Below are positions 17,067-29,918 of a stretch of DNA of 54,334 nt, piece after piece; position 1 is the stretch's first letter; each line of letters begins with the position of its first letter. The notes beneath the pieces were generated by a model, which was given only the letters and a program-made list of their open reading frames with translations, made no database searches and was not told the origin of the DNA. The DNA lies in the NCBI GenBank assembly GCA_016866775.1, contig VGLJ01000032.1, forward strand, positions 1-54,334. Direction: 5' to 3'. The position numbers and the translations under genes are program-made. Source of the stretch: Candidatus Rokuibacteriota bacterium. GTDB lineage: Bacteria; Methylomirabilota; Methylomirabilia; Rokubacteriales; CSP1-6.

Positions 17067-17087
17067 TAGGCTGGTACTGAAATTGCA
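17067..17087 (+). promoter_or_regulatory. Promoter-like region before lptC (sigma-54-like and extended -10)
   Basis: TGGTACTGAAATTGCA (17072-17087) matches the sigma-54 -24/-12 pattern with correct GG-to-GC spacing and one deviation (T for C in TGGCAC). The same bases also contain TGG-TACTGA, an extended -10 type box. A sigma-54 start would fall near 17098, inside the codons after ATG 17089, so that reading would need the in-frame GTG 17107 as start. Function unproven. Confidence 0.35.
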
Positions 17088-17088
17088 C

Positions 17089-17640
17089 ATGCGTCGCCTA
17101 GCCCACGTGATCCTCGCGGTCGTGCTCGTGTTCGTGCTGGTGGTCGCGGCCACCCTGTACACGAGCACCCGGGCCCGCGAGGTGGAGCCGGTCGTCGGGC
17201 CGGCCCCCGTCAAAGCCGATCTCAACGTCAAGGAAGTACGGATCGAGGAAGAGGCGGGGAAGGTGCGCTGGCGGCTGACCGCCGAGCAGGCGCTGATGTG
17301 GGACGAGAAGGGCGCGGGCCGCAGCGAGTTGAAGCGCGTCAGCGTCGAGGTCGACGAGCCCGAGCGCTCGTGGAGCATCGTGGGCGACACGGCGGAGTAC
17401 CTCCAGAAGGAGAAGAGGATCGAGCTCCGCGGCAACGTGGTGGTGACGTCCAGCGACGGGCTCAAGCTCGAGACCGACGTCCTCCGCTGGCATGGCGAGG
17501 AGCGGCGCCTGTGGACGGACTCCCCGGTGACCCTCAGCGCGCCGGGCGGCGTGGTGCGCGGACAGACCCTCGAACTCGCGATGGCGAGCGACGCCACGAC
17601 GATCGGCGGCCGGGTGCGCGCACGCTTCGAGAGGCGATGA
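17089..17640 (+). CDS. lptC: LPS export ABC transporter periplasmic protein LptC
   Basis: 183 residues with one N-terminal membrane helix (HVILAVVLVFVLVVAATLYT) and a periplasmic beta-jellyroll domain. LptC receives LPS from LptB2FG and passes it to LptA. Family features are weak in sequence but clear in pattern: VRIEEEAGKVRWRLTAEQA, TAEYLQKEKRIELRGNVVVT and LETDVLRWHGEERRLWTDSP. The place between kdsD and lptA is classical. The stop overlaps the lptA start (ATGA). Confidence 0.92.
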   Translation: MRRLAHVILAVVLVFVLVVAATLYTSTRAREVEPVVGPAPVKADLNVKEVRIEEEAGKVRWRLTAEQALMWDEKGAGRSELKRVSVEVDEPERSWSIVGDTAEYLQKEKRIELRGNVVVTSSDGLKLETDVLRWHGEERRLWTDSPVTLSAPGGVVRGQTLELAMASDATTIGGRVRARFERR

Positions 17641-18221
17641 GGCGCGCGCTCGTGATCGGCCTGCTGCTGTGGGGGGCTGAGGGGTTTGGGGTCCTCCGGT
17701 TGTGGGGCCCCATGTTCAACGGCGCGCCCGGAGCCCCTCAACTGCAGATGGTTCACGCGCAGGCGCCCAAGGCGCAGCCCATCACCGTCGACGCCGACAA
17801 GATGGAACGCTACGGCAAGGAAGGCCTGGTGGTCTTCACGGGCAACGTGGTCGCGCGCCAGAACAACTCCGTGCAGTACGCCGACCGCATGGAGGTCTAC
17901 CTCGACGAGAAGGGCGACCGCGTGCTCCGGACGGTGTCGACCGGCACGGTGAAGATCATCACGCGCGACTGCCGCACGGCGACCGCGCGCCGTGCGGAGT
18001 ACCACGACCTCGAGCAGCGCGTGGTGCTCATGGGCAACGCGCGCGTCTGGCAGGACGAGAACGTGGTGAGCGGCGACACGATCACCATCTTCCTCGCCCA
18101 GGACAGAAGCGTGGTGCAGGGCGGACGGCAGGAGCGCGTGAAGGCGGTCTTCCAGCCGCGCGACGAGAAGAAGGACGGCCAGGCGTCGGTGAAGTCCGCG
18201 CCGGCGACCTGCCAGAACTGA
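17637..18221 (+). CDS. lptA: LPS transport periplasmic protein LptA
   Basis: 194 residues. LptA forms the periplasmic bridge carrying LPS to the outer membrane. The mature domain begins near [19 protein letters not shown] and continues [20 protein letters not shown] and [20 protein letters not shown], the OstA/LptA pattern. Oddity: the signal peptide [12 protein letters not shown] is cut by repeat B2, which adds about 24 Gly/Pro-containing residues before the expected cleavage site VHA-QA. Whether export still works, or the new hydrophobic segments are tolerated, is unknown. Coupled to lptC by ATGA; lptB follows 2 bases after the stop. Confidence 0.9.
17670..17720 (+). repeat. Repeat family B, copy B2
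   Basis: TGGGGGGCTGAGGGGTTTG, then GGTCCTCCGG, then TGTGGGGCCCCATGTTCA. Shares GGGGTCCTCC and TGGGGCCCC.ATGTTCA with B3. It lies inside the LptA signal-peptide region in frame. Downstream CCGGAGCCCCTC can pair with its left half, forming a longer hairpin. Confidence 0.8.
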
Positions 18222-18223
18222 CG

Positions 18224-18946
18224 ATGGAAGGCCTGGTCGCGCAGGGGCTCGAGAAGTGGTTCCGGCGGCGCAAAGCCGTGGACGCCGTCTCGCTCGACAT
18301 CCAGCGCGGCGAGGTGGTCGGGCTGCTCGGGCCGAACGGCGCCGGCAAGACGACGTCGTTCTACATGATGGTGGGCCTCTTACCCGCGGATCGTGGCCGG
18401 ATCTTCCTCGAGGGCGAGGAGATCACGCGGCTGCCGATGTATCAGCGCTGCCGGCGCGGCGTCGGGTACCTGCCGCAGGAGTCGTCGGTCTTCCGCAAGC
18501 TCACGGTCGAGGAAAACATCCTCGCGATCCTCGAGACGCAGGACCTCTCGCGCGCCGAGCGCCGCGGCCGGCTCGAGACGCTGCTCGCCGAGCTCGGGCT
18601 CACCGAGCTGGCCCCGTATCCGGCGTACACGCTCTCGGGCGGCGAGCGCCGGCGGCTCGAGATCACGCGCGCGCTCGTGACGGCTCCGCGCTATCTGCTG
18701 CTCGACGAGCCGTTCACGGGCATCGATCCGATCGCGATCGGCGACATCCAGGAGATCGTGGCGCGCCTGCGCGACCGCGGCATCGGCATCCTGATCACGG
18801 ACCACAACGTCCGGGAGACCCTGGCGATCACGGACCGGGCGTATATCCTGTATGAGGGGAAGGTTCTCGTGTCGGGGACGGCCAGTGAGATCGCGGCCAA
18901 CCCGCGGGCTCGAGAGATCTATCTCGGCGAGAAGTTCTCCCTCTAG
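18224..18946 (+). CDS. lptB: LPS export ABC transporter ATP-binding protein LptB
   Basis: 240 residues, a complete ABC ATPase. LptB dimers power LPS extraction through LptF/LptG. Walker A is [20 protein letters not shown], the Q-loop region is [18 protein letters not shown], the signature is [15 protein letters not shown], Walker B is [13 protein letters not shown] and the switch His is in [11 protein letters not shown]. All are typical of LptB. Its membrane partners are fused in one protein encoded 8 kb away. Confidence 0.97.
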
Positions 18947-26395: not shown

Positions 26396-26437
26396 CGGGG
26401 GCTTGGGGGTCCTCCAGCGATGGGGCCCCGATGTTCA
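26396..26437 (+). repeat. Repeat family B, copy B3
   Basis: CGGGGGCTTGGGGGTCCTCC then AGCGATGGGGCCCC and GATGTTCA. It begins at the base after the UPF0182 stop and ends on the last codon of the convergent lptFG gene, so it fills the intergenic space and may double as a two-way terminator. Confidence 0.75.
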
Positions 26438-28810
26438 CGTCCGGGCGCGGGCGAAGAGGCTGAGGCCGAGACCGAGGAAGATCACGTTGGCGGTCCACGC
26501 CGCCAGCAGCGGCGGCAGCAGATCGGCACGCGCCAGCGCCACCGCGGCCTGGTGCACCACCATGTAGCCGACCATGATGGCGATCGCCAGCCCGATGCCG
26601 AAGAGCCGCGTCGACCGCGGCGACTGCAGCGCGAACGGGATCGCGACCAGCACCATGATCAGGTTCACGAGCGGGAACGCGAGCTTCGCGTAGAGCTCGA
26701 CCACGTACTTGCGCGCGTGGAACCCCGCGGCCTCCAGCCGGCGGACGTAGTCGCTCAGCTCCGTGTAGCTCATCGCGGACACCGGCTTCTGGATCTGCGT
26801 GAAGTGATCGATGCGCTCCTCGAGGTTGAGCGCGCTCATCGCGAACGGCACCGACTCGATCTGGCCGGCGGCGTTGACCTCGCGGAACGCGCCGTCCTCC
26901 AGCTCCCACGCGTCGCCGGACCAGTGCGCGCGCCGCGCGTCGAGGCGGCTCTGGAGCCGGAAGTCCGGAGCGAGCTCGAGGACCGTGACGCCGAAGAGGT
27001 CGGCGGTGCCCGGCGCGAGGAGCTCGACGCGGTAGAACCGCGTCTCGCTGGCCCGGAGCCAGAGCCGCGCCCGGGACTGCATGTGCCGCGGGAGCTGGCC
27101 GCGGATCTTCACGCGGTCGACTTCCTCGCCACGCTCGTTGATCTGCGGCAGCACCATCTCCTGGAACACCCCGGCGAGGATGGCCACGGCGGCGCCGAGC
27201 GCGATGATCGGCGCGCTGATCCGATAGAGGCTGAGGCCGGCGGCCTTGAGCGCGGTGAGCTCGTGATACCGGGTGAGCGTGAGGAAGAGGAAGATCGTGG
27301 CCACGAGCATCACGATGGGCAGGCCGTCGTGCAGCCACGCGGGCAGCCGGTACGCGAAGTGCTCGAGGATGTACGCGAGCGGCGGCTTCGACCGGAGGAA
27401 CCGATCCAGCGTCTGCGCGAGGTCGACGACCACGAAGAGCGCCGCGGCGACCGCGAGCCCGAACAGCATGAACGTGAGGTGCGAGCGGAGGAGATAGCGG
27501 TCGATGATGAGCGTCGAGTCCTTCGCGGAGCCCGTCGCGACCTGCCGCTCGGTCGCGCCCGGGCGGCGCCACCACGCGCTCACCGCGTCCGCCAGCGACC
27601 AGACCCACCGCGGTCCGCGCCAGCGGAGGTCGCGCGCGACCATCACCATCAGCACGAGGCCGACCGTCCCGAAGAGGGCGTTCGGCGCCCACATGGCGAC
27701 CCAGGCGGGGAAGCGCTGGCGCAGCGCCGCGCCTTCGAGGGTGGTCACCAGCAGGTAATAGAGCGTGAGGATCGCGAGGCTGCCGACGAGCGCGATCGAG
27801 CGGCCGCCGCGATGCGAGCGCACGGCGAGGGGAAAGGCGACGAGCGCGAACACCACCGCCGTGAGCGGGAAGGCGAAGCGCTTGTGCCACTCGATCTCGA
27901 AGGGGATGCGGCGGAACGGCTCACGCGCGAACGTCGCGATGCGCTCCTCGAGCTGCGCGAGCGTGTAACCCTTCTCCGGCTTCTCGAGGCGCGCGGCGCC
28001 GCGGAACGTCGCGTCGAGCGGCAGGCTCATGTCGTACAGGCCGAAGACGGTGTAGCGGTAGCGTCCCGCGGCGGCGGCCCCGCCGATCTCATCGGGGCTC
28101 GGGATCTTGCCGGCCACGACGCCCGCCGCCGGCGCCGCGTGGAGCACGTCGGCCTCGTTGACCGCGCCGTCGATGAGCCGGAGCGTGAGGCGGCGGTTCA
28201 CCTCGTCGGGCAAGAGACGGCCCTCGCGCGCGGTGATGATCCGCGTGAGCCGCGGGTCGCGCTCGTCCGAGACGAGGAGCCCGCGCAGCGCGACCTGCGA
28301 GGCGCTGATCTCCTGCGGGTAGATGACGACGTCGCCGAAGTCCGCGTTGAAGACGCGCTCCTTGAGCCCGCTCGTCGCCCGCGCTTGCAGGATCTTGAAG
28401 AGCTGCGCCTGGAACTCGCGGTTCGCCGGCGGCCCCAGCACGAGCGTCAGCGCACCCGACGCCAGCGTCACCATCAGGGCGACCGCGAGCACGGGGCTGA
28501 AGAGGCGCACCGGCCCGATGCCCGAGGCCTGGAACGCGACGACCTCCAGGTCGCCCGTCATGCGGCCGGCGGCGAGGAGCACCGCGACCAGCAGCGCCAT
28601 CGGCAGCGTGAGCGCGAGGAACGACGGCAGCATGAAGAGGAGCAGCTGGGTTACCAGGTGAAGGGGGACCCCCTTGGTGATGACGAGGTCCGTCAGGTTG
28701 TAGATCCGGTCGATGAAGAGGACGAAGGTGAGGAGCGCGCCGCTCAGGCAGAACGGCGCGACCAGCTCTCGGAGGACGTACCGATCGATGACGGAGATGA
28801 TGCGCAGCAT
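26435..28810 (-). CDS. Fused LPS export permease LptF-LptG
   Basis: 791 residues, about twice the usual size. Two YjgP/YjgQ permease units follow each other without a stop. Unit 1 (about 1-400) starts ISVIDRYVLRELVAPFCLSG and is LptF-like. Unit 2 (about 435-791) starts IIDRYLLRSHLTFMLFGLAV and is LptG-like. Each has the family order: two helices, LTLPMALLVAVLLAAGRM or HDGLPIVMLVATIFLFLTLT, a periplasmic beta-jellyroll, then three helices with the ALVAFPLAVRS or LVAIPFALQSPR element. The linker (about 400-430) is Arg/Trp-rich and cytoplasmic. In most bacteria LptF and LptG are separate and pair as a heterodimer with two LptB; here both halves are covalently joined. A possible extended -10 box lies 15 bases upstream. 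Confidence 0.93.
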   Translation of the reverse strand: MLRIISVIDRYVLRELVAPFCLSGALLTFVLFIDRIYNLTDLVITKGVPLHLVTQLLLFMLPSFLALTLPMALLVAVLLAAGRMTGDLEVVAFQASGIGPVRLFSPVLAVALMVTLASGALTLVLGPPANREFQAQLFKILQARATSGLKERVFNADFGDVVIYPQEISASQVALRGLLVSDERDPRLTRIITAREGRLLPDEVNRRLTLRLIDGAVNEADVLHAAPAAGVVAGKIPSPDEIGGAAAAGRYRYTVFGLYDMSLPLDATFRGAARLEKPEKGYTLAQLEERIATFAREPFRRIPFEIEWHKRFAFPLTAVVFALVAFPLAVRSHRGGRSIALVGSLAILTLYYLLVTTLEGAALRQRFPAWVAMWAPNALFGTVGLVLMVMVARDLRWRGPRWVWSLADAVSAWWRRPGATERQVATGSAKDSTLIIDRYLLRSHLTFMLFGLAVAAALFVVVDLAQTLDRFLRSKPPLAYILEHFAYRLPAWLHDGLPIVMLVATIFLFLTLTRYHELTALKAAGLSLYRISAPIIALGAAVAILAGVFQEMVLPQINERGEEVDRVKIRGQLPRHMQSRARLWLRASETRFYRVELLAPGTADLFGVTVLELAPDFRLQSRLDARRAHWSGDAWELEDGAFREVNAAGQIESVPFAMSALNLEERIDHFTQIQKPVSAMSYTELSDYVRRLEAAGFHARKYVVELYAKLAFPLVNLIMVLVAIPFALQSPRSTRLFGIGLAIAIMVGYMVVHQAAVALARADLLPPLLAAWTANVIFLGLGLSLFARART

Positions 28811-28825
28811 CGTCGGGCTTCGCCT

Positions 28826-28834
28826 GTTGTACCA
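28826..28834 (-). promoter_or_regulatory. Possible extended -10 promoter of lptFG
   Basis: On the minus strand TGG-TACAAC precedes the lptFG ATG by 15 bases, giving a predicted leader of about 9 bases. No convincing -35 box was seen. Confidence 0.35.
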
Positions 28835-28862
28835 TAGCGATGTGTCACCGAGATTCTTTGGG

Positions 28863-29918
28863 GTGACGCGGACTTACGCGGTCGCCGCCCTCCTCGCCGC
28901 CACGTGCCTGGGGCTCGCGGTCACCGGGTCCGCGGGACCCGTTCCCGACCGGCTCGAGCGCTTCCGCGCGCTCGTCTCCGAGCGTCTCAGCCCGGCGCAG
29001 ATCCTCGACGTCCAGGCCGCCGAGGAGGCGTACCGCGAGGCCTACGCGCTGCTGGACGAGGAGATCGTCGAGAGCCTCGGCTCGGGCGGCGTGTTCGCGT
29101 CGACGGCGTTCCTGCAGGACCGGCTCGACGCGTTCAGCGACGCCTGGGGCGGTGCGGCCGTGAGGATCGTGCGCCTCGGTCAGCTCACCGTCGGCGTGTT
29201 CCAGCTCGAAGAGCCCGCCAGCGTGACGAGCGTGCGCGTGTACGGCAAGCTGCGCGAGGAAGCGGCGCTGCTCAGCGTCCTCGAGCGCGAAGGCCGGCCG
29301 ACGCTCTATCCGCTGCCGGGAGGCCCGGGCGGCGTCGTGCAGTTCCTCGTCGCGTGGGACGGGACGCCGCCGGGCCGAGGCGGGCGTCCGCTCCGTCTCG
29401 ACGTCGCGCGCCAGCGGGCCGATGGTGTCCACGTGGTGTGGTCGACCGCCGACGTCTATCCCGACGGGCTCATCGCGAGGAATTACGCGGTTCGTGGCGC
29501 GGAGGTGCGGGTGCGCTACGAGCTGCGCTATCCCGGCTGGGTGCCCGGCTGCGAGGGGCAGACCGAGCAGGAGGACGCGTATCGGTTCACGCCGGCGACC
29601 GGCACCTACACGCGGCTGAGCCAGCGTCAGTTCGACGCGTGGCATCGCGACATGCACGCCGCGGCCGCGCGCCTGTTCGCGGCACTCGAGGCTCAGGATC
29701 GGCGCACCGTCGCCGCGCTCGTGCCCGACGCGCGCGTTCGCGAGCGCCTTCCGGCGCGGCTCACGCCGGAGCCTGTGTGCGATGCGACCGCCGGCGCGCG
29801 CAGCGAGCAGGTGCTCGTGGCCGCGACCGACGGACAGGGATCGCCGTGGACGGTCACGTTCCAGCGCGGTGAAGGCGCGCGCTGGCGCGTCGTCGGCGCC
29901 TCGCCCGTGATTCCGTGA
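28863..29918 (+). CDS. Exported protein of unknown function
   Basis: 351 residues, not recognised. GTG 28863 gives a signal peptide (YAVAALLAATCLGLAVTGSA, cleavage probably after GSA). The mature part has a helical N-terminal region (LERFRALVSERLSPAQILDV, EEAYREAYALLDEEIVESLG) and a beta-rich remainder with PEEP-like stretches (QLEEPASVTSVRVYGKLREE). The segment PGWVPGCEGQTEQEDAYRFT resembles surface or periplasmic domains in style only. A further in-frame GTG at 28842 is possible. The gene is divergent from lptFG and its stop overlaps the valS start by 4 bases, so it is probably cotranscribed with valS. Confidence 0.72.
   Translation: MTRTYAVAALLAATCLGLAVTGSAGPVPDRLERFRALVSERLSPAQILDVQAAEEAYREAYALLDEEIVESLGSGGVFASTAFLQDRLDAFSDAWGGAAVRIVRLGQLTVGVFQLEEPASVTSVRVYGKLREEAALLSVLEREGRPTLYPLPGGPGGVVQFLVAWDGTPPGRGGRPLRLDVARQRADGVHVVWSTADVYPDGLIARNYAVRGAEVRVRYELRYPGWVPGCEGQTEQEDAYRFTPATGTYTRLSQRQFDAWHRDMHAAAARLFAALEAQDRRTVAALVPDARVRERLPARLTPEPVCDATAGARSEQVLVAATDGQGSPWTVTFQRGEGARWRVVGASPVIP

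Follow-up and report, generated by a model that had tools for sequence, protein, structure and literature searches.

The window, by which we mean the whole 54,334-nt stretch of DNA analysed here, contains on its minus strand one long gene in which an LptF homologue runs into an LptG homologue without interruption, and on its plus strand a group of genes for the partner proteins of lipopolysaccharide (LPS) export. The features referred to below are the following.

17083..17640, plus strand: lptC, partner protein (TIGR04409, 77.9 bits, cut-off 38)
17760..18158, plus strand: lptA domain, inside the open reading frame 17298-18221 (TIGR03002, 93.6 bits, cut-off 71.7)
18233..18946, plus strand: lptB, separate ATPase, inside the open reading frame 17702-18946 (TIGR04406, 351.8 bits, cut-off 240)
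from 18967, plus strand: rpoN, after lptB (Pfam)
26435..28810, minus strand: fused lptF-lptG gene encoding 791 aa, with the ATG at 28810 and the stop codon at 26435-26437
27626..28810, minus strand: LptF half, residues 1-395 (TIGR04407; structural match to LptF chains)
28544..28546, minus strand: codon of E89, the coupling-helix glutamate of the F half, invariant in 40 fused sequences
27515..27625, minus strand: linker, residues 396-432, 37 aa, with a predicted helix at 401-414
26438..27514, minus strand: LptG half, residues 433-791 (TIGR04408; structural match to LptG chains)
27260..27262, minus strand: codon of E517, the coupling-helix glutamate of the G half, invariant in 40 fused sequences

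Direct reading of the window reveals no internal stop codon across the 791-aa frame, and Pfam matches the product twice with PF03739 (498 bits in total), so that the two complete YjgP/YjgQ permease units proposed in the preliminary description do lie in a single frame. The whole protein passes the NCBIfam equivalog models of both families, LptF TIGR04407 (330.5 bits, cut-off 230) with its best stretch at residues 8-220 and LptG TIGR04408 (348.6 bits, cut-off 240) with its best stretch at residues 435-788; the halves align accordingly, which bears out the expected order of F before G. The closest solved structures in a PDB search are LptF chains at residues 7-183 and LptG chains at residues 437-775. 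A linker had been predicted near residues 400-430, and the family matches, the structural model and the translations of relatives agree in placing it at about 396-432. In the source genome (5.13 Mb, 97.5% complete) there are exactly two matches to PF03739, both of them inside the fused frame, and the assembly thus holds no second LptF or LptG. A 1:1 stoichiometry of F and G would follow from the gene structure itself. LptF and LptG are normally separate polypeptides and the product of the fused gene is one chain, a difference that concerns gene structure and not homology.

The genomic setting bears on the cargo of the fused protein. At about 15.2-20.4 kb of the window, on the plus strand, the gene order is kdsA, kdsD, lptC, lptA, lptB, rpoN, and both LptB and LptC are thereby encoded in the same window, with scores above the cut-offs of TIGR04406 and TIGR04409. 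The similarity of the fused protein to solved LptF and LptG structures is modest (best PDB match, E 9.6e-17), which would be compatible with transport of another glycolipid or lipid in place of ordinary LPS. Such a change of cargo is, however, highly improbable, since homologues of kdsA, kdsD, lptC, lptA and lptB share the window and both halves exceed their equivalog cut-offs. Most likely, the fused protein serves ordinary LPS export.

A model of the fused chain, built with 40 sequences, has a mean pLDDT of 78.4 and a pTM of 0.68. Its residues 6-398 align to solved LptF chains with Z up to 26.1 and residues 432-790 to solved LptG chains with Z up to 27.9; structural matches outside the LptF and LptG families begin at Z 9.5. 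According to the secondary structure of the model and the chain alignments, each half consists of membrane helices and a periplasmic beta-jellyroll after helix 3, and the modeled layout of the F half runs from TM1-3 through a coupling helix (89-95) and the beta-jellyroll (about 161-263) to TM4-6. The coupling-helix glutamates of E. coli are E84 in LptF and E88 in LptG, as given in PMC10094684. By analogy, E89 may have the role of E. coli LptF E84 and E517 that of LptG E88, the residues having been matched by eye from their place in the fold. We infer the position of the linker, because the model represents a single chain without LptB or LptC, was built with 40 rows and has a pLDDT below 50 at linker residues 415-428.

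Relatives in named genomes were retrieved with an alignment query, a single-protein query having matched none. They comprise 53 loci, of which 45 (L033-L077) display 43-67% identity and all come from assemblies of Candidatus Rokubacteria/Rokuibacteriota or, in one case, Candidatus Methylomirabilota; the remaining eight belong to other phyla and are 24-29% identical. On this basis the window is assigned to the Rokubacteria, which are bacteria of soil and groundwater. In most of the 45 loci, the fused gene is flanked by valS and a 401-aa frame, and often by UPF0182 on the other side. Loci that lack the usual neighbours, for example L038, L044, L045, L060 and L076, probably represent second copies or the ends of contigs. 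The 401-aa frame, located at 28713-29918 of the window, has no Pfam match and is divergent from lptFG; in Rokubacteria, where it lies between valS and the fused gene, its conservation is 42-59%.

Within the order, 59 genomes were searched with the LptG model, and the loci were then fetched and translated directly. The junction between F and G lies in one frame in 56 of these genomes and the two genes are separate in none, the other three being not assessable (G076 has no match, G081 yields a weak fragment only and G093 ends inside F). Two-domain YjgP/YjgQ proteins, which the preliminary description had suggested looking for in related genomes, are thus found throughout the order. By direct translation, a single stop-free frame leads out of F, through the linker and into G in 55 genomes, the source genome included, and in 52 of the 55 both halves stay in frame up to the contig limits. 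Frame breaks fall away from the junction, inside G in G041 and inside F in G067 and G069; in G094, the junction is in frame and the contig end cuts the gene 49 residues into G. The named relatives that carry this gene are without exception metagenome assemblies, and this, together with the gene-internal breaks in G041, G067 and G069, might be taken to mean that a sequencing or assembly artefact removed the stop codon between two genes. Nevertheless, the open junction recurs in 56 of 59 genomes, with 63 distinct linkers and with named assemblies coming from several projects, and an artefact is for practical purposes ruled out by these independent genomes. Indeed, a missed stop at the junction and relatives with separate genes but the same junction sequence had both been anticipated as grounds for abandoning the fusion: the former is contradicted by the open junction in the 55 directly translated genomes, and no relative of the latter kind was found in the order.

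Several genomes of the order, including G051, G054, G059 and G060, contain two or three fused copies. The third fused copy of G054 (L157, G054:C588) is fast-evolving, with long branches in both halves. G074 and G077, which belong to one genus, contain a fused copy along with an unfused lptF-lptG pair that belongs to a different lineage (L110, G074:C93, and L111, G077:C125). The LptG of L110 falls with Pseudomonadota, on a long branch, and so this pair would have been acquired by G074 or would represent a contaminant.

In sister orders of the same class, lptF and lptG are separate adjacent genes in 26 of 27 loci, with one locus per genome. The survey covered 35 genomes, of which 27 provided the loci read, six had no match and two had partial or unfetched matches. 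In the sister loci, the distance from the lptF stop to the start of the G domain is -14 to +97 nt, and the LptF C-terminal tails are 13-34 aa long. L011 (G010) has a single 702-aa frame with F and G but is not counted as a fusion: its G is without approximately the first 50 model positions, and with them the first membrane helix. This frame is taken to result from a deletion or an assembly fault; L008, a near relative, has separate genes. Four other phyla, with 253 genomes altogether, gave nine same-frame candidates among the matches listed, namely, at least five in 75 genomes of the phylum of L081 (a Sulfurimicrobium), at least one in 71 of the phylum of L082 (Gemmatimonadetes), two in 39 of the phylum of L078 and one in 68 of the phylum of L083. 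All nine were rejected, as direct translation shows that F ends in a stop codon before G, and two more long-frame cases, G120 and G134, turned out to have separate genes when fetched. The reported length of an open frame may run across a stop that lies between two matches, and direct translation was therefore relied on, for the order as well. Among the matches listed, the fusion thus appears to be rare or absent in these four phyla. At L102-L106, L175, L176 and L178, from several phyla, lptF and lptG share a frame that is interrupted by one stop codon, a single substitution away from fusion. For L096 (G097:C26), the reported length of the open frame is 24,350 aa, which probably reflects masked or unusual sequence.

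The phylogenetic tree comprised 97 half-proteins, that is, 25 fused F and 25 fused G halves selected from 109 fused rows, 23 separate F and 24 separate G. The fused F halves form one clade among LptF (99/96) and the fused G halves one clade among LptG (100/100), in both cases with the unfused genes of the same class as neighbours. Each fused group is intact in all 200 bootstrap trees; some outgroup rows have long branches and an unsure placement. As far as the sequences tell, this gives a single origin: the fusion seems to have arisen once, in the ancestor of the order, and to have been kept since; it is a property of the whole clade and not a peculiarity of the source genome. In L005, the lptF stop is directly followed, in the same frame, by the ATG that opens lptG, so that the loss of one stop codon would create a fusion. 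We suggest that in the ancestral genome the lptF stop codon of such a tight lptF-lptG pair was lost and that the C-terminal tail of LptF became the linker.

The 109 fetched fused loci, many of which are the same gene reached twice, contain 63 distinct linkers. These are 35-49 aa long (median 38, standard deviation 2.7 aa), with a mean net charge of +7.2 and 22% Arg. The helical moment of linker residues 6-20 is 0.505 versus 0.317 for shuffled sequences and is above that of its own shuffles in 59 of the 63 linkers. For the LptF tails of the sister orders, the corresponding values are 0.385 versus 0.283, with 20 of 26 above shuffles; since these tails, too, have some amphipathic character, the linker helix may be a legacy of the LptF tail and need not be a new device. 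In a comparison of 21 independent pairs, G has a dN/dS of 0.15, F one of 0.30 (a value inflated by the pair L118-L123, whose F pieces are ill cut) and the linker one of 0.70. Judging by these values, the linker is nearly free in sequence and bound in length. A length-fixed, basic and amphipathic segment could be a working part, kept at the inner surface of the membrane under the TM5F-TM1G gate and acting on LPS entry or on the traffic of the LptC helix. We regard such a function as rather unlikely; if true, Rokubacteria would run a one-sided, gate-tethered Lpt extractor.

The same segment raises the question of whether the chain stays whole, as the linker is rich in Arg, poorly predicted at 415-428 and fast-evolving. 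Were it cut there, or were LptG also produced from an internal start, the working transporter would still be a heterodimer of two chains. Start codons near residue 430 had been put forward for checking, and in-frame codons are indeed present: in the source gene there is a GTG at codon 410 and ATGs at 388, 390 and 448, and many relatives likewise have GTG or ATG codons in frame within the linker or close to it, so that additional internal initiation may take place in individual species. No start position is conserved among the relatives, however; in 10 of the 63 distinct linkers, the stretch between the end of the F domain and G+2 is free of ATG, GTG and TTG, and 36 of 63 have no ATG. Cleavage, in turn, is hard to reconcile with the nearly constant length of the linker, constancy that a discarded stretch would not need. 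We therefore consider both routes to a two-chain transporter improbable.

Collectively, we estimate a probability of roughly 0.88 that the gene encodes a normal LptB2FG(C) LPS extractor, the heterodimer of which is tied together covalently in the order F before G, through a cytoplasmic linker that descends from the LptF tail. One chain would supply the whole transmembrane part of the complex, with two LptB subunits docking onto the two coupling helices and the halves acting upon each other like separate LptF and LptG. Both termini of LptF and of LptG are cytoplasmic, and a connection from the end of F to the start of G is thus topologically simple and would be cytoplasmic and near the gate. 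The linker would bridge the end of the F-half TM6 and the start of the G-half TM1 and would sit below the TM5F-TM1G gate, the LPS entry point and, in E. coli, the site of the LptC helix; the fusion suggests that a connection at this place tolerates a covalent tie. The benefit is probably assured 1:1 pairing, with no homodimers of LptF or LptG. The Lpt transporter, an asymmetric heterodimer, is a target for antibiotics. A single-chain form that occurs in nature, with stoichiometry and order fixed, offers a ready construct for introducing mutations into one half only, and the fusion is, furthermore, a clean marker of a bacterial order.

Among ABC transporters in general, it is common for membrane domains to be fused. 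A natural LptF-LptG fusion was not reported in the literature searched, which was mostly other than subscription papers and included the available parts of PMC5007114, PMC8871954, PMC10094684 and PMC3688454; annotated entries may exist in protein databases such as InterPro. The Thi-system ABC importer carries two fused membrane domains on one polypeptide, as described in PMC3688454, and resembles the fusion in having two membrane halves in one chain, but it is an importer of another kind. Diderm Firmicutes have a single LptF/G homologue, according to PMC5007114, and thus likewise one permease gene per genome; this protein presumably forms a homodimer, whereas the Rokubacterial chain holds two different units. 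The closest sequence relatives are the lptF-lptG pairs of the sister orders, which have the same gene order and differ by the stop codon between the genes. Finally, the LptF (TIGR04407) and LptG (TIGR04408) of LptB2FGC are like the fusion in fold, order of elements, coupling-helix glutamates and tree placement of each half; they are two chains, whereas the Rokubacterial form is one, in which a 37-aa linker replaces the C-terminal tail and stop of LptF.
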